Origin: Oscillospiraceae bacterium
GTDB taxonomy: Bacteria > Bacillota > Clostridia > Oscillospirales > Acutalibacteraceae
Direction of reading: 5' to 3'
Assembly: GCA_015066445.1 (NCBI GenBank)
Contig: SVOK01000018.1
Location: forward strand, 1 to 40,038
Length of the DNA: 40,038 nucleotides
The notes below the pieces were generated by a model. It saw only the letters and a program-made list of their open reading frames with translations. It was not told the origin of the DNA and made no database searches. A program made the position numbers and the translations under genes. Shown piece after piece: positions 23,495 to 31,399 of this stretch; positions within the stretch are counted from its first letter, which is position 1; each line of letters begins with the position of its first letter.

Positions 23495-23523
23495 TTGATT
23501 TTTGTTTTAAATAATGGTAAACT
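23495..23523 (+). promoter_or_regulatory. Promoter of the structured RNA/XRE transcript
   Basis: TTGATT (23495-23500) and TAAACT (23518-23523) with 17 nt between them on the plus strand. The expected start of transcription, about 23530, coincides with the first base of the long stem of the RNA described next. Confidence 0.65.
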
Positions 23524-23529
23524 ATGTAT

Positions 23530-23694
23530 GCCACGTAATTTAATACGACATACTATTAGGGATTGTGATTTTTTACCTTTGAAAAAACACATTCTCTGTT
23601 TTCACATTCTCTTATAGTTTGTCGGAAATTACGTGGCCGTAAAAAGAGCTATGTGTTTTTCGGTGCGTAGCTCTGCTGCGCACTTTTTTATTTT
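23530..23694 (+). ncRNA. Rod-like structured RNA with terminator/antiterminator, XRE leader or independent small RNA
   Basis: The outer arms GCCACGTAATTT (23530-23541) and AAATTACGTGGC (23626-23637) pair perfectly. Then CGACATACTAT (23546-23556) pairs with ATAGTTTGTCG (23614-23624) with one mismatch, and GGGATTGTGA (23559-23568) with TCACATTCTC (23602-23611), again with one mismatch. The result is one extended hairpin of about 108 nt. It is followed by AGAGCTATGTGT (23645-23656), which can pair with 23663-23674. That pairing excludes the terminator stem at 23663-23683. No reading frame of note lies inside. It matches no RNA family I can recall; overall shape recalls 6S RNA, but I see no sequence support for that. 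Confidence 0.65.
23663..23694 (+). terminator. Terminator within the XRE leader
   Basis: GTGCGTAGC and GCTGCGCAC form nine pairs (one G-T) around a 3-nt loop and are followed by TTTTTTATTTT. It ends immediately before the GGGGTG ribosome binding site of the XRE gene, so most transcripts would stop before the gene unless the competing upstream pairing forms. Confidence 0.82.
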
Positions 23695-23702
23695 GGGGTG
23701 TA

Positions 23703-24232: not shown

Positions 24233-27200
24233 TTATTCTTTATCGGTCTTGCTCTTTTTTCTTAAAGCGGTTGTGGTGAAAATACCTGTTACGCTCACAA
24301 AGAACACTGCAATCCAGAGCATAAGATTTGTGCTATCACCTGTCTTGGGGCTTTCAGGAACCACGGGAGCAGGTGTTTCAGGCTCATCATCAGGCTCGGG
24401 AGTGGGAGCAGGAGTATAGTTATAAACATTTTCAAACTCTGCAACTACGTCTTTTACCTCTTTGCCGCCTACAGTAGCAGTAGCCACAATTACATTCTTA
24501 TCGCTGAGAGTAATTGCTACAGAAATATTATAAACCTCTTCACTGTAGGTCACATTAGCCTTATCGCCCTTAACCTCAGAAAGCTTATACTCATAGGTCT
24601 TGCCGATATCGTCCTCAGTAAAGGTCAACTCAAACTCAGCCTTACCGTCCTTATCAGATTTAACGGTATTCTTTTCATTCTTTGTTACATTTTCAAGCAC
24701 GAATTCAAAGTCCTCAGGACCCAATTTTTCGCTACCTGTGTTTTTAACTTTCTTATTAACATCGAATGAAACCTTAATATCGTCAGGCTTAGGAGTGTAA
24801 GTGTTTTCAAACTCAATTCCGCCAACATCAGTTTCAGTACCCTTATCATAGGTAACTGTATCGATAACGAAATCGCCGTTGCTGTTTGCCTTTACCTTTA
24901 TTGTAACTGTATAAACAGACTCGTCGTAAGTAACACGCTCAATTCCGTTTTTCTTTTCAACTACAGTATACTTAAAGCTCTTAGCCTCATTGAAGTTAAG
25001 CTTTTTGAACTCAAACTTACCGTCCTTATCGTTCTTAACAGTTTCGATAAGCTTATCTGCGTTACGGCCCTCACCCTCATAAAGCTCGAACTCAAATTCA
25101 TCAGCCTTAAGGTCTCTGCCTTTAAGCTTCTTTTCGCCGCCGATAGTGTAATCGGTAGCCTTAGGAGTATAAGTGTTATTGAATTCTATACCGTTTGCAG
25201 CCTTCTCGGTATTACCGCTGATAGCCACATAAACAGGGTCAGCCGCTACAAGCTTGCCCTCGCCGTTATCGGTAACAGTAATCTTAACGCCAAATACAGT
25301 CTTATCATAAGACATACGCTCTGCGCCGAGATCCTTTTCAACTACTACATAGTAGTAATCTTGGGCCTTAGTAAACTTAAGCTCCTTATCGAAAGTGAAT
25401 AATCCGTTAGCATTATTCTTGGCAGATTTAACAGCTTCACCCTTTTTGTTATAATCCTCATCAGCTTCATAAAGCTCAAAGGTGAACTCATCAGCCTTGA
25501 TTTCTCTGCCGTTAGCATCAAGCTTTTTATTACCGCTAAGCTTAATCGCATCAGTAGCATCAGCCGAATAGGTGTTGCTGAACTTAATATCGGTATTAGC
25601 CGAATTATTTATAAGCTCCTCAGTAATTACAAGCTGACCTTCTCCGTTATCCACAACAGTAAGCTTAATTGTGTATACAGTGCTGTCATACTTAATACCC
25701 TTAATGGTGCTTCCACCGTTTACTTCCTTAACAGTCAGAGTATGAGTACCTGCAGTAGTAAGCTCTACAGGCGCAAACTCAAATTTATCTGCCTTGTTTT
25801 TAACAGTTTCTAAAGCAGAGCCCTCATAGCTTAATTCAAATGAGAACATATCGTCATCAAGAGTTTTATTATAATCCTTTTCACCCGAAACAGTATACTC
25901 AACGGGAGCAGCCTTATAAATATTACTGAAGTTAAGAGTGTTGCTTGTGAAATTGCCTTCAATACCGTGGCACTCAATTCCAACAACGCTTGCAATCATC
26001 TTGCCGGCACCGTCATCTACTACCATTACGGTAATATGATAGTCACGTGTATCAAAGCCGATACCCTTCTTATTAGTTTGAGGTATCTTTTCTGCAAGTA
26101 TGTAATAGTACATACCCTCGTCACCGTCAGCATAATTAAGGGTCATTTCATAGCTGCCGCTGTAATCGGTATCCTTATCATTCTGAGCAGTTTTTATGGG
26201 ATTAGCTCCTGCTGCAACGATGAAATCCTTATTAGCTTCATAAAGCTCAAAGGTAAATTTATCATTTTCAGTAAGCTTTCTGCCCCCAAGTGTCTTAACA
26301 CCCGAAAGTGTGATACTTGTACCTTCTGCCAAATAGCTGTTTCTGAACAAAACATCAACCTTAGAAGCCTCAATACCGCCCAAATCAACTGTAGAGGTTA
26401 CTGTAGCGCCGTCAAGCTTAACTGTTTTAGTAAGTCCGCCGTTAGTATCGTCAGTAAGAGTTACAGTAATTTCATAGGTCTTAGTATCGTAGGTTATACC
26501 CTTCTTATCGGTAGGAATGTATTCCTTAACGGTATAGGTATGCTCACCAGCCTCAGTAAATGTAAGCTCAGGGAATTCGAAGCTTCCAGATGCAGTATTT
26601 GCAACAGTGTATAAAGGAGTGGAGCTGCCTTCTTCATAAAGCTCGAACTTAAATCCGCCTGCTACAAGAGTGCGGCCTGTAAGCTCCTTAGTACCGTAAA
26701 TCTTAACCTTTTCAGTATCAGTAACGGTGTAACTGTTAACAAAATCAAGCTCAGACTGAGAAACATTGCCTGCTCCTACCTTATGAACAACCATACTGCC
26801 GCCGTCATTTTGGGAAACAGAAAGTATTGTCTTTCCGTTTGCATCAATAGACTTCACAACATTAACAGTAATATGGTATTCGGTAATATCGTAGGTAATA
26901 CCGCCAGCATTACCCTTCTGCTCTTTTACAAGAAGATATTTAACACCGGGAGTGTCGAATATGATTCTACCGGCAAATTCGTAAGCTCCGCTTGTAGTCT
27001 CAGCTGTCTGTACAGGGGTAAGACCGGTTGTTGAGAAATCTGCTCCTGTTTCATAAAGCTCGAAAACAAACTTGTCGCCCTGCTTCCAGCTTCTGCCGTT
27101 TAAGGTCTTCTCACCGCTTAATACTATCTCCGGCTTAGAAGTAACGCTATCATCATAGTTATTGTTGATTGCAAGTGCGCTGTCAGGCTTATTTGCTGTG

Positions 27201-30200
27201 CTTGCAATTTCTGTTCCTAAGCCGTTTTGAGCAGAAGCATCATAGTTATAATAATTAACTTCCGGCTCAACACCCGTCCAGACAACCTCTACAACATACT
27301 TGAATGCAGTATCATAGGTCATACCTACAACTCTGTCATTAAGATCAGGAGAAATCTCACGAACATAATAGTACTTAGCGGTTGCATAGTCACCCTTTAA
27401 AATATTGAATCTTATTGTAGCATTACCGTTATCATCAGTAAGAGCATAGTAAAGCGGGTTATGTCCGGAAGTAGTCTCGGTTGGGTCGGCAAACAAACCG
27501 AAAAGTATACCCGAGTCGTGCTCATGGTCGTCGGAAGAACCGTTTATAGTCTTCTGCATATCAAAGCTTACGGTGCCTGCCTCGTAAAGATTTTCAAAAT
27601 TCTTTACAATAGTGGTGGTATTAGCCGATGTATCAAATTCTGCGCTTTGTCTGTGAATGATAACATTATCTTCCTCAATTTCCAAAACGCCGTCTGCATT
27701 ATTATCAGTTACATTAACAGCGAAAAGTGCAAAGCTCTTATCGTAAGCAATATTTGCGGGCTTGCCAACAGTACCGTCAGCCGGCTCAACCTCATAAATT
27801 TCGTATGTATATGTACCAACCTCTGTGTAGGTAATAGCAGTTCCCATATTATAGCTATAGGTTTCGCCTTCCTTGATAGCATCAATTATTATAGGTGCTC
27901 CAACATTAACTGAAGTATTACCGCCTATATCAACCTGCTGCAGAGCTATCTGATACTCGGTTACAGTATCGTCATAGTTAGGAATATTCTTAGTACCTTT
28001 GAGTATTATATCCGGAGTTACGGAATCGGGCTCATAATCATTTACAAGCAATGCCATACTCTCGGTATTCTTTACAATTGTTCCGCTTAAATCGTTAGCA
28101 TCAGTAACAAGCTTAAAGCCATAATCCTTATCGCCCTTATTAGCGTTTACAAGATTTTCTGTTACAACATACTTAACGGTTTCAGGAATATTGGTAAACA
28201 GAACATCCTCACCGTCGCTGAGTTTTAAGGTATAAACGCTGTCGCTCACCTTGTTAACACCTGCGGGAGCTACAATGTTTGCAAGGTCATTTGCATTACC
28301 GCTAAAGGTTACAGTAATATCAAATTCCTTGTTAATTAAAGCCTGTGGAACAGCATTTGTGACAAACGGATGGGTTACATCCTTTTCCACAAGCAGGCTG
28401 CCGTAGCCACGGGGAGAGTTTACAAAATCAACCGCATTAATAGTGTATTCTTCAACTTTGCCTTTAGCATTAGTGGAGCTTGCAACGTAATAAGCACTGT
28501 ACTGCTCTGTTACTGTATACTCTGTATCTGTGGGCAGACCTGTGATATAAAGCACATCACCTGCACCTATTGCACGCTGGATATTTCCGTTTACTACTGC
28601 TACCGAGCCTGTTTCAACAGTACCGTCAGCCTTTTCAAGTCTGTAAGGATAACTGCTTGCAATAGTTGTGCCCGAAAGCGCAATATTAAAGGTAAAGCTG
28701 TTAGAAGCACCGTCAACCGTTTCGGTCACAGTCTTTGTAAGCTTAATACCCTGAGCCGCAGCAACAGTAAGCTTACCGTTGTTACCAAGGTAGTTAACTA
28801 CGTGATAACCGTTATGACCTTCAGATGCGTGATAAGCAATAGCAGGATAATCATGCCAGCTTAATGTACCTGTTTTGTTTTCAGATTTATCGCTATGTAC
28901 ATTAGAATCTGCTTCAAGATAGCTAAAGTAGCTCTTAACAGTACCCGCTTTAATATACCAGTTGTTTCCTACCTGCTTATTTTTAAGAATAGCATTTTCG
29001 GTAATGGGGTTATAAACTGTTTTGAACTTTGCCGCTCCGCCTTCAATTTCAACGTAATTGTAAGCGTGATAATAATTGCCGCCTGTAGGAGCAGATGAGC
29101 CTGTATAAGGCTTATATGAGCTACCGTCCTTTTCATAAATAAGAGTGTCCTCTGTGTAGTAATAGCGTGTATTCTCTAATGAGGGAACGAAATGTGTTAC
29201 ACTGGTATGAATCTCGTTGTGGTTAAATATATTCTCAGGCGGTGTTTGAGGAACTGTGAATGCGTTACCGTCATTATCTCTCCAACGATTGGTGTAGAAA
29301 GAATATGTACCGTCAGCATTTTTGCGGAAATCCTCAGTAACCTTTTCACTTATATTGTAAGGAGTGATATCGTCTCTTAGACCCACCTCATACAGAAGTG
29401 TTGCAGGAGATTTCTCGCTTGCGTTATTGGTCATACCCTTAATACTTTCCGCTGTGAGTTCTTCACCGTTAATTTCAATTGAATATGTAACCATCGGCAG
29501 TAAAGCTGCAGGAAGGTTTGCATCTACCGACTGTCTGCCTGTTGCAATATCCTCTTTTACACGAATAAGGGTATACATCATTGAAGTTTCAACATAGTTC
29601 TGAGTAACATCTCCGAGATATATGTATGACTTCATAATATACTTAGCATTTTGGGGAGCCGAGGTGCGTGCGAGCTCGTTATAAGGAGCTATATAATTAT
29701 TATTCGCATCTGCATACCAAGCTACATAGTTAGAGAAATCGTTTTCGTTGGTATAGTGAATATATCCATTGTTAACAGCATTATTAATAAGTGTCAAAGC
29801 AGCTTCGTTATTAACATTAAAGCGGCTTTCCAATGCAGAAATAAGCTCTGCTCCAAGCTCGGTAAGAGTTCCGTCCGCAGCTACAATTTTATCATTAATT
29901 ACATGCTCTGCAAACATATCACCTGTTACAAGTGTTCCCTTGCCGATATGAACACCCTTCATATCCTTTACTTCCATATATGTACCGATTTCATCAGTAA
30001 AGGAAATATAACCGTCAGTTTCAGCATTGCCATCTACCAAGGTAGAATAGTATTTATCCTGAAGAATTTTAGACTGATTAATAATTTCAGATACTATTTT
30101 CTCAAAGGCTTCAACCATATCCTGAGCATCATTCGCGGACTTATAATCGGTAACATAATGACGTTGCTCTGTTGAAGTAAGCATACCTGTAGTATCCTTA

Positions 30201-31399
30201 GGAACATCAAAATTATTTGATACTTCAACATAGCCGTCTTTATCAGCTACATCGTTTATGAAATTATCCCACATATCTATGGTGTTAGAGTTAGCATTAG
30301 AGGGATTAAGCACATCAGCCGCATTCTGGTTGTTAGAAACACCGAGGCCTAATGTATAAAGCTTAGCGTTACTAAGCTCCTGACCGTAAAGCGAAGCCAT
30401 TTTTGCCTTTGTCCATGCAGCGGTAAGCTGGGTTAAGAAGCTGAGTCTTGTGCTTTCGCTTGTACCGTTACCCACATTGGAAGTATTTACATCATTATAA
30501 TTGGTAGTACCTACAGTAGGCGCACCGTCACCCATAAGCACCAAAATCGGAACACGCTTTGTTCCTGCCTGAATCTGACCCTCAGGTATCACCTTATCGG
30601 GAGCGGCTTCAAACTGCTTGTACGCAAGATAAATACCATTCTGCATATAAGTAGCGCCGCTTGCAGATTTAGAGCCTGTTATATACTCTGTACCGCCCTC
30701 TGCCTTAACGCCTGCTGTAATAGTGGGATTAAAATATCCGGTACTACGGCTTGCAACCGAAACAGAGTTACCGCTACTGGTAAGATAAACGTTATGAGTC
30801 TTATTGTCTTCCGTTTCGGTTATATCGGTTACATATCTTCCAAGAGGAAGGATTACAGTACCTGTTGAAGCAGAAGAATTACCTGCATAAGAATTACCAG
30901 AATAAAGCACAACACCTACACGGTTGTAGTTATTAAGCTCTAAAAGACGCTCAATAGCACGGTTAGTACTTGTAACCATTTCGGAAACCTCATTGTTTGA
31001 CATCGAGTTCGATAGGTCAAGCACTAACATTGTATCAGTAGGAACAGAGGAATATCCCTTAATTTCGGTATTAGAACCGATACCGCTTAATGCTACAAGG
31101 AAATTTTCATTACCGAAATTATCCTTGCCAAACTTAAGCTTATCGGCGATATCATTTTCAAAATAATCCTTAGCCCCTTCGCTTGTGAATACAGATTTAT
31201 CCACAAACACACCGCCTGCATAGCGTGAACTGTCATCAGTAAGCCAGTTCTTCCATACATCAATAGTATGAGGGTCTGCAATTGTACCTGTAGTGCTTGC
31301 GGCCATAGTCATAAGCCCTGCAATAGGCATAACACCAAGCAGGATTGCTATTGACAGCAATACAGACAGCACTTTCTTTCCAACAATTTTTGTTTTCAT
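24233..31399 (-). CDS. Giant vWA-domain surface adhesin with tandem pilin-isopeptide-type repeats and sortase anchor
   Basis: A 2388-residue cell-wall protein. It has a signal peptide (residues 1-34, MKTKIVGKKVLSVLLSIAILL...) and a vWA domain with the MIDAS motif DLSNS at 128-132. About nine beta-rich repeats begin near 1130, 1275, 1423, 1563, 1693, 1831, 1948, 2080 and 2205. Repeats carry lines such as IxLSGxKxLxGRxL, FxFELYE and GIxYDxxxYxIxVxVxDxGxG, typical of the Spy0128/FctA pilin domain, which forms Lys-Asn isopeptide bonds. The C-terminus has SPKTGD (about 2349), a membrane segment and basic tail, a variant of LPXTG. It probably acts as an adhesin or pilus-tip-like protein. A TetR gene lies 44 nt upstream; no sortase gene is in the window. 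Confidence 0.88.
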   Translation of the reverse strand: MKTKIVGKKVLSVLLSIAILLGVMPIAGLMTMAASTTGTIADPHTIDVWKNWLTDDSSRYAGGVFVDKSVFTSEGAKDYFENDIADKLKFGKDNFGNENFLVALSGIGSNTEIKGYSSVPTDTMLVLDLSNSMSNNEVSEMVTSTNRAIERLLELNNYNRVGVVLYSGNSYAGNSSASTGTVILPLGRYVTDITETEDNKTHNVYLTSSGNSVSVASRSTGYFNPTITAGVKAEGGTEYITGSKSASGATYMQNGIYLAYKQFEAAPDKVIPEGQIQAGTKRVPILVLMGDGAPTVGTTNYNDVNTSNVGNGTSESTRLSFLTQLTAAWTKAKMASLYGQELSNAKLYTLGLGVSNNQNAADVLNPSNANSNTIDMWDNFINDVADKDGYVEVSNNFDVPKDTTGMLTSTEQRHYVTDYKSANDAQDMVEAFEKIVSEIINQSKILQDKYYSTLVDGNAETDGYISFTDEIGTYMEVKDMKGVHIGKGTLVTGDMFAEHVINDKIVAADGTLTELGAELISALESRFNVNNEAALTLINNAVNNGYIHYTNENDFSNYVAWYADANNNYIAPYNELARTSAPQNAKYIMKSYIYLGDVTQNYVETSMMYTLIRVKEDIATGRQSVDANLPAALLPMVTYSIEINGEELTAESIKGMTNNASEKSPATLLYEVGLRDDITPYNISEKVTEDFRKNADGTYSFYTNRWRDNDGNAFTVPQTPPENIFNHNEIHTSVTHFVPSLENTRYYYTEDTLIYEKDGSSYKPYTGSSAPTGGNYYHAYNYVEIEGGAAKFKTVYNPITENAILKNKQVGNNWYIKAGTVKSYFSYLEADSNVHSDKSENKTGTLSWHDYPAIAYHASEGHNGYHVVNYLGNNGKLTVAAAQGIKLTKTVTETVDGASNSFTFNIALSGTTIASSYPYRLEKADGTVETGSVAVVNGNIQRAIGAGDVLYITGLPTDTEYTVTEQYSAYYVASSTNAKGKVEEYTINAVDFVNSPRGYGSLLVEKDVTHPFVTNAVPQALINKEFDITVTFSGNANDLANIVAPAGVNKVSDSVYTLKLSDGEDVLFTNIPETVKYVVTENLVNANKGDKDYGFKLVTDANDLSGTIVKNTESMALLVNDYEPDSVTPDIILKGTKNIPNYDDTVTEYQIALQQVDIGGNTSVNVGAPIIIDAIKEGETYSYNMGTAITYTEVGTYTYEIYEVEPADGTVGKPANIAYDKSFALFAVNVTDNNADGVLEIEEDNVIIHRQSAEFDTSANTTTIVKNFENLYEAGTVSFDMQKTINGSSDDHEHDSGILFGLFADPTETTSGHNPLYYALTDDNGNATIRFNILKGDYATAKYYYVREISPDLNDRVVGMTYDTAFKYVVEVVWTGVEPEVNYYNYDASAQNGLGTEIASTANKPDSALAINNNYDDSVTSKPEIVLSGEKTLNGRSWKQGDKFVFELYETGADFSTTGLTPVQTAETTSGAYEFAGRIIFDTPGVKYLLVKEQKGNAGGITYDITEYHITVNVVKSIDANGKTILSVSQNDGGSMVVHKVGAGNVSQSELDFVNSYTVTDTEKVKIYGTKELTGRTLVAGGFKFELYEEGSSTPLYTVANTASGSFEFPELTFTEAGEHTYTVKEYIPTDKKGITYDTKTYEITVTLTDDTNGGLTKTVKLDGATVTSTVDLGGIEASKVDVLFRNSYLAEGTSITLSGVKTLGGRKLTENDKFTFELYEANKDFIVAAGANPIKTAQNDKDTDYSGSYEMTLNYADGDEGMYYYILAEKIPQTNKKGIGFDTRDYHITVMVVDDGAGKMIASVVGIECHGIEGNFTSNTLNFSNIYKAAPVEYTVSGEKDYNKTLDDDMFSFELSYEGSALETVKNKADKFEFAPVELTTAGTHTLTVKEVNGGSTIKGIKYDSTVYTIKLTVVDNGEGQLVITEELINNSANTDIKFSNTYSADATDAIKLSGNKKLDANGREIKADEFTFELYEADEDYNKKGEAVKSAKNNANGLFTFDKELKFTKAQDYYYVVVEKDLGAERMSYDKTVFGVKITVTDNGEGKLVAADPVYVAISGNTEKAANGIEFNNTYTPKATDYTIGGEKKLKGRDLKADEFEFELYEGEGRNADKLIETVKNDKDGKFEFKKLNFNEAKSFKYTVVEKKNGIERVTYDESVYTVTIKVKANSNGDFVIDTVTYDKGTETDVGGIEFENTYTPKPDDIKVSFDVNKKVKNTGSEKLGPEDFEFVLENVTKNEKNTVKSDKDGKAEFELTFTEDDIGKTYEYKLSEVKGDKANVTYSEEVYNISVAITLSDKNVIVATATVGGKEVKDVVAEFENVYNYTPAPTPEPDDEPETPAPVVPESPKTGDSTNLMLWIAVFFVSVTGIFTTTALRKKSKTDKE

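Follow-up and report, generated by a model that had tools for sequence, protein, structure and literature searches.

A dispersed leader RNA of Clostridia, a candidate transcription attenuator with alternative strand pairings, upstream of an XRE-family regulator gene

In trp-type attenuators a chain of RNA segments, each pairing with one neighbour or with the next, decides whether a terminator forms, and the T-box leaders, which occur in several copies, are leader attenuators of the Firmicutes. 6S RNA is a single-copy RNA and not a leader. Like the element described below, transcription-terminating riboswitches such as pfl/ZMP and preQ1 occupy a 5' leader, combine alternative terminator and antiterminator with a pseudoknot and fold co-transcriptionally (for part of these features see PMC7337938, PMC11625349). 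The excerpted account of LoaP/dfn antitermination describes a leader hairpin, an intrinsic terminator and an UNCG hairpin (PMC12691694), and the orphan RNAs of Weinberg 2010, in the part of that report considered here, include Gut-1 and Clostridiales-1 and come from gut bacteria, in part Clostridiales (PMC2864571).

The locus studied here comes from an Oscillospiraceae bacterium (assembly GCA_015066445.1, contig SVOK01000018.1), of which the whole analysed stretch of 40,038 nt is referred to as the window. Positions 23495-23689 hold one copy of a dispersed RNA family, in which promoter, rod, linker and intrinsic terminator follow one another ahead of a ribosome-binding site and gene (Table 1). 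Mutually exclusive terminator and antiterminator pairings lie between the promoter and the start codon, the antiterminator with modest covariation. We consider it probable, at roughly two chances in three, that the element is a cis-acting transcription attenuator and a member of a large family of leader RNAs in Clostridia. The initial annotation had read the layout as a riboswitch or attenuator platform, and the 5' leader position together with the covariation of the outer helix P1 and the terminator supports that reading as far as sequence can. The element shares the segment chain with trp-type attenuators, but has one strand more and no conserved leader peptide. It differs from the pfl/ZMP and preQ1 riboswitches in having no Rfam match over threshold, no metabolic regulon, little conserved sequence besides an apical run of five A residues (A5) and the linker, and one strand with two partners (NEAR and FAR). 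Its likeness to LoaP/dfn, as far as the excerpted source goes, lies in the leader hairpin and the terminator, and in the UNCG motif, which stands in a hairpin there and here forms the terminator loop (UNCG tetraloops in 94/145 elements; PMC12691694).

Table 1. Features of the window copy and of the gene behind it
Feature	Coordinates	Strand	Remarks and basis
Sigma-70-type promoter, -35 TTGATT (23495-23500), -10 TAAACT (23518-23523)	23495..23523	+	17-nt spacer, TG upstream of the -10; read from sequence
P1 5' arm GCCACGTAATTT	23530..23541	+	Begins at predicted +1; P1 pairs covary in alignment A1
AATA bulge between P1 and the remaining rod	23542..23545	+	Semi-conserved across the family (column conservation)
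5' rod strand S1	23546..23575	+	23557-23575 pairable with NEAR, 23546-23568 with FAR; duplexes, shuffles, swap tests
NEAR strand with A-run	23580..23598	+	Partner of S1 or LINKER; duplex, swap and covariation tests
FAR strand of rod	23602..23625	+	CACATTCTCT common to FAR and NEAR; duplex test
P1 3' arm AAATTACGTGGC	23626..23637	+	Sequence; covariation in A1
LINKER	23638..23662	+	Partner NEAR (23645-23648 and 23651-23660) or terminator side (23645-23655)
Terminator 5' arm GTGCGTAGC	23663..23671	+	Antiterminator arm 23664-23674; scan and covariation
Terminator 3' arm GCTGCGCAC and T6 tract	23675..23689	+	Sequence and terminator scan
XRE-family HTH regulator (PF01381), 160 aa	23703..24185	+	Gene behind the leader; GGGGTG ahead is the likely ribosome-binding site

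The promoter of the window copy is weak, with 8 of 12 consensus bases, and falls below the cut-off of the promoter scan (9 of 12 required), so that its placement rests on the relatives. A -10-like hexamer ends exactly 6 nt upstream of the rod in 87% of 142 elements (window copy included) and lies 5-8 nt upstream in 139/142, of which 111/139 also carry a -35 of at least 4/6. From the placement of the two hexamers the predicted transcript start coincides with the opening base of the rod, 23530, which agrees with the start proposed initially and with the conserved -10 position in relatives.

The rod (23530-23637) had been described as three consecutive paired segments, the first perfect and the other two with one mismatch each. 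The 12 perfect pairs of the first segment, P1 (23530-23541 with 23626-23637), were confirmed; the two one-mismatch segments were not, and 23546-23568 instead pairs with 23602-23624 in 5-bp blocks split by U.U mismatches every 6 nt. This regular spacing was not noticed on reading through relatives. The 10-nt direct repeat CACATTCTCT (23588-23597 and 23603-23612) lies inside both NEAR and FAR, the alternative partners of one rod strand. Family-wide the likeness of NEAR and FAR is weak (5.44 for own against 4.70 for swapped pairs, sd 0.09; values of at least 8 in 11/113 elements against 3.3% of swapped pairs), and the exact repeat of the window is therefore not general.

The region 23495-23702 folds at -60.4 kcal/mol, against -38.5 (sd 3.8) for shuffled sequences (z -5.7; 0/200 shuffles). 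The 9-bp terminator stem that had been placed at 23663-23683 upstream of the XRE gene is borne out by the sequence and by the scan: 23663-23671 pairs with 23675-23683 and is followed by the T6 tract, ending at 23689, and the scan found one terminator, compared with 0.4 on average (sd 0.8) for shuffled sequences. The element ends 13 nt upstream of the XRE start. The antiterminator, previously given as 23645-23656 with 23663-23674, is present as 23645-23655/23664-23674 at -14.7 kcal/mol; it is not striking in the single sequence, since 20/1000 shuffles are as good. Three further pairings are absent from the initial annotation, namely a NEAR:LINKER pseudoknot of 14 pairs (-14.4 kcal/mol, 0/1000 shuffles), S1:NEAR (-15.0 kcal/mol, 2/1000) and S1:FAR (-25.8 kcal/mol, 0/1000). 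It is this pseudoknot and the NEAR/FAR exchange, both missing there, that would carry the switching logic. Beyond the XRE gene and convergent with it, the minus strand (24233-31399) encodes a repetitive surface protein of 2388 aa that has a signal peptide and, at its C-terminus, an SPKTG-like sorting motif.

A BLAST search of the region against its own genome and 60 related genomes matched 52/60 of the latter (E<=1), mostly over linker and terminator; many of the matches were weak and a fair number strong. Alignment A1 comprises 29 rows from 30 elements collected by regular expression on fetched loci, the divergent L005 being excluded, and the covariance model R1 was built from it with the outer helix P1 and the terminator as its sole pairs. 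R1 finds 7 copies in the window's genome (E<=0.1, the weakest at 8.7e-7) and copies in 60/70 genomes of the same genus (E<=0.001, up to 13 per genome), in 142/394 of the order (E<=0.001) and in 98/391 sampled genomes of the class (E<=1e-5). In the phylum sample of 398 genomes, which doubles as a specificity control, only the window's own genome gave a match (E<=1e-5). The samples include that genome, and in the larger ones seven candidates were scored per genome, so that copy numbers there are lower bounds. The exact pattern occurs in at least 117 stretches of the named genome collection, and the 80 named records among the matches listed are mostly metagenome-assembled genomes of gut or rumen Clostridia. 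Three contigs of the viral collection carry one identical element, of which one was kept for the statistics; among phage records, two contigs of human faecal phages, both without annotation, match in part (77% of the query in one of them), and the plasmid records gave no match to the element.

The family-wide statistics draw on R1 matches in two sets, 89 in 79 loci and 94 in 80 loci (80 of the at least 117 pattern loci were used). Their last 90 bases define 163 distinct matches, and removal of the opposite-strand matches L059:829 and L133:2453 and of fragments under 120 nt leaves 159. The script found all landmarks in 145/159 and dropped 14 (11 without a clear P1, 2 without an A-run, 1 without a U-run). 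Tandem promoter-attenuator units, placed on one strand and as many as four in succession at 55-nt intervals, occur in L049:886-1666 and also in L014, L061, L079, L109, L111, L113, L117, L137, L139, L151, L171, L176 and L179; 16 neighbour pairs of elements lie within 400 nt, counting same-strand pairs. A longer subclass of about 200-228 nt is seen in L103, L107, L109, L112, L150, L152, L166, L169, L172, L174 and L175, many of whose members carry a further side hairpin, for example GGGGUAUU/AAUACUAUACCC, and at the apex a hairpin resembling GAAUUUGGUAAAAACGCAAAUUC. The elements of L017, L103, L223 and L224 have tRNA genes no more than a few kilobases away, which may mark integration islands.

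The possibility, raised initially, that the region is absent upstream of homologous genes was not borne out, and the elements lie in 5' leaders. Of the 156 elements whose downstream sequence extends for 150 nt or more, 134 are followed by an open frame of at least 38 codons with a loose SD-like motif (at least 3 bases), at a median distance of 21 nt and within 40 nt in 106 of the 134; these are raw values from a start-choice script that favours near starts. Thirteen of the 22/156 elements without such a frame precede another element. Pfam annotation of 128/134 products returned HTH_3 (13), BspA-type LRR_5 (12), AMP-binding (4) and ABC_tran (4), with zinc ribbons, lectins and SLH also present, among the best 25 of 78 families; a crude regular expression classed 24/134 products as lipoprotein-like and 27/134 as signal- or membrane-like. 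The downstream genes, including XRE regulators, BspA-type surface proteins, lipoproteins and ABC ATPases, do not form one pathway. The XRE paralogue behind another copy in the window's genome (L041, G000:C18) appears to depart from the shared reading frame some 27 residues in.

Compensatory changes in relatives, which the initial annotation had called for, are seen in the 29 rows of A1, where the outer helix and the terminator covary. The P1 and terminator pairs, picked after screening A1 itself, are 94.5% paired in this alignment with double changes in 12/21 pairs, and their covariation score of 0.343 compares with 0.155 for shuffled alignments (0/500) and at most 0.097 when slid. For NEAR:LINKER, also on A1, 90.6% of cells are paired and the score is 0.264 against 0.173 shuffled (0/500) and at most 0.130 slid; double-change pairs number 6 against 4.4 expected (88/500 shuffles). 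The covariation of the antiterminator on A1 is modest (0.278 against 0.224 shuffled, 0/500), its double-change pairs number 3 against 2.9 expected (316/500), and a +2 slide scores 0.231 with more double-change pairs (8) and cells (15 vs 11) than the true register.

In a swap test each strand was offered the partner of another element, and own and foreign duplex energies were compared. Among 145 of the 159 elements, own partners gave -17.3 against -13.4 kcal/mol (sd 0.21) for NEAR:LINKER and -14.8 against -12.1 kcal/mol (sd 0.21) for LINKER:T5; among 110 of 116 class-A elements, they gave -12.9 against -9.2 (sd 0.26) for S1:NEAR and -20.9 against -8.3 (sd 0.37) for 5'strand:FAR. All four alternative pairings thus fit their own element better than swapped partners, on average. 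At the level of individual elements, a median of 8% of foreign partners for NEAR:LINKER and 22% for LINKER:T5 bind better than the own one, which falls in the best tenth in 81/145 and 47/145 elements, respectively. Reversed-strand controls, run for all pairings except LINKER:T5, deviate too (NEAR:LINKER -7.9 against -7.5, sd 0.12, a shift of about 0.4 kcal/mol; z -2.6 for S1:NEAR and z -9.0 for 5'strand:FAR), indicating that relatedness and composition inflate the swap-test figures; for 5'strand:FAR the gap of 12.6 kcal/mol is about seven times the control gap of 1.9. The duplex test supersedes a fixed-register pseudoknot count with 14 zeros of 153, because the zeros inspected were mostly A-runs ending in G, which allow G.U pairs. 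The sequence elements, their genomic position and the statistical support for each alternative pairing are matters of observation.

Two other readings of a promoter-terminator unit in many copies bear on these results. A dispersed MITE- or REP-like repeat of mobile DNA, carrying a terminator by chance, would account for several copies per genome, tandem copies and inverted-repeat ends, but copies within one genome differ through most of the rod and yet keep its pairing, the geometry of promoter and start codon is fixed, and complementarity is kept between strands outside the inverted repeat; we regard this origin as highly improbable. A gene for a trans-acting small RNA, with the terminated transcript as product and read-through incidental, is improbable as well: its own promoter, its strong terminator, the tandem rows of up to four and the fairly good pairing of NEAR from one copy with the linker of another (mean -13.4 kcal/mol) would suit such a gene, whereas in most copies the start codon follows at a median of 21 nt past the terminator, and an antiterminator would be pointless. 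The more specific proposal of a 6S-like RNA with read-through was rejected, given several copies per genome (7 in the window's own), diverse downstream genes, mostly directly behind the copies, and no Rfam match to 6S in the window or the further loci searched.

For the attenuator we propose a chain of strands, S1, NEAR, LINKER, T5 and T3, in which each would be able to pair with its neighbours and FAR would be the rival partner of S1. As the polymerase leaves the promoter, S1 would first fold on NEAR. Once FAR and the second P1 arm emerge, S1 would shift to FAR, closing the rod and freeing NEAR, which could then form the pseudoknot with the linker; the linker would be unable to pair with the terminator 5' arm, the terminator would form and transcription would stop before the gene (OFF). 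If S1 were held on NEAR, or if the NEAR loop were occupied, the linker would be free to form the antiterminator, allowing read-through into the gene (ON). We infer this folding order, the direction of the switch and its action on transcription in cells. Contact between the linker and the tip of the rod, which is about 30 bp long, would require the rod to bend, and this counts against the model.

Partition functions were computed on lengthening transcripts without the pseudoknot. In the 116 class-A elements the mean probability that NEAR is paired to the 5' strand falls from 0.84 before FAR emerges to 0.48 after, and in the window copy from 0.83 to 0.11. No such release is seen in the 20 long class-B elements (0.35 to 0.42). 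At full length, again without the pseudoknot, the mean probabilities over 145 elements are 0.49 for T5 paired to the linker and 0.40 for T5 paired to T3, and the antiterminator outdoes the terminator in only 59% of the 145. The window copy favours the terminator under these conditions (0.92 against 0.07 for the antiterminator), unlike the 208-nt fold of the window copy including its flanks, which shows the antiterminator. The closeness of the two averages (0.49, 0.40) would fit an element without ligand that sets a fixed or polymerase-speed-dependent level of read-through for each gene, as would the free variation of sensor sequences between copies, and the U5 tract of the linker might act as a pause; a fixed level, however, would need no set of alternative pairings kept in step, and such a kinetic element seems quite unlikely to us.

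As to what might set the attenuator, our guess is that the trigger may be a molecule that recognizes either the loop at the apex, (GG)UAAAAA, or the linker, UUUUUCG. Each of the five columns of the apical A5 is kept in 28 or 29/29 rows of A1. GG precedes it in 21/29 rows; a higher value, 93% for each G, was produced by a script with an anchor biased towards GG. Behind U5, C and G each occur in 26/29. The linker stretch was used in selecting elements and the apical A-run was not; the constancy of U5 is partly built in, because the U5 tract served in that selection. A conventional small-molecule riboswitch, with a second messenger or stress metabolite held in a UAAAAA/UUUUUCG pseudoknot pocket that sets terminator against antiterminator, is possible but rather doubtful. 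The near-constant A5, never required by the search, and the bases flanking A5 and U5 argue for it, as does the occurrence of multiple copies in a genome ahead of genes for surface proteins and regulators, a regulon of the shape familiar from c-di-GMP riboswitches. Against it, the remaining RNA is almost free in sequence, which is unusual for an aptamer, and c-di-GMP as general ligand is disfavoured by protein content. For that comparison, the order sample supplied 20 carriers and 20 genomes without a match to the element, these last all belonging to the window's family. GGDEF is unmatched in 11/20 carriers and 7/20 non-carriers (E<=1e-5).

The conserved apical loop on variable stems is also compatible with a hairpin-binding protein, and in protein-dependent antitermination such an RNA-binding protein would hold the apical hairpin; we think this unlikely, as the known factors are dispensable. 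CAT_RBD, expected for a BglG/LicT (RAT) leader, occurs in 0/20 carriers (2/20 non-carriers), and ANTAR is missing from 6/20 carriers (present in 14/20) and from 1/20 non-carriers. For LoaP, carriers have at most one NusG match (one in 19, none in 1), and second NusG copies occur in 3/20 non-carriers (both at E<=1e-5). GGDEF, ANTAR, CAT_RBD and LoaP-like proteins are thus not required in the 20 carriers. A trp-type leader peptide was likewise rejected: an ATG frame of at least 5 codons is found in 126/145 elements, a start codon with an SD-like motif before the end of P1 in only 16/145, and the only ATG in 23530-23660 of the window (at 23651) lacks an SD-like motif. T-box leaders do not apply either, since Rfam finds one in L176 away from its elements and the downstream genes are not amino-acid genes as a group.

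The initial annotation had recognized no known family, and the Rfam search that it suggested returned none above threshold: Rfam 15 gave 0 matches in the window and none above the gathering score at the elements in 12 further loci, where it recognized tRNA, T-box and Gut-1, all away from the elements. When the limit was relaxed to E = 5 for 8 loci, just two matches overlapped an element, both at chance level: ncS025 at L018 (E 4.5; 22.4 bits, cut-off 46) and, on the opposite strand of L019, mir-254 (E 3.1; 21.4 bits, cut-off 70). Gut-1 (RF01706) lies at L034:849-923, in the locus of an element and at a different place. In the part of the 2010 report considered, the orphan RNAs, like the element, come from gut bacteria, in part Clostridiales; Gut-1 and Clostridiales-1 have Rfam accessions and give no match at the element, and TwoAYGGAY is listed there without accession (PMC2864571). 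Full-text literature searches found no described family of this kind. An earlier, unnamed listing is possible, because one study lists 3161 candidate RNAs in its supplements, 100 of them near HTH-XRE genes (PMC8040213). A leader RNA that controls a terminator is of a known kind; judging from the sequences, the family and its chain of strands appear to be new.

A broader proposal, which we put forward tentatively and at less than even odds, is that the family forms a Clostridia-wide class of RNA sensors built as a strand-exchange chain, in which the choice between NEAR and FAR during transcription would be relayed through the long pseudoknot to the terminator. If this is true, the copies of a genome, which have little in common apart from the A5/U5 contact, could all respond to a single non-metabolic signal and adjust surface proteins and regulators in concert. 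The NEAR/FAR exchange would then offer an elegant example, found in nature, of strand exchange during transcription. The alternative pairings yield clear predictions for reporter or in vitro work. The element is widespread, and most of the named records listed for it are metagenome-assembled Clostridia of gut and rumen, in which gene control is largely unexplored; that one RNA family is linked with adhesin-like surface proteins, lipoproteins and regulators suggests a signal common to them.
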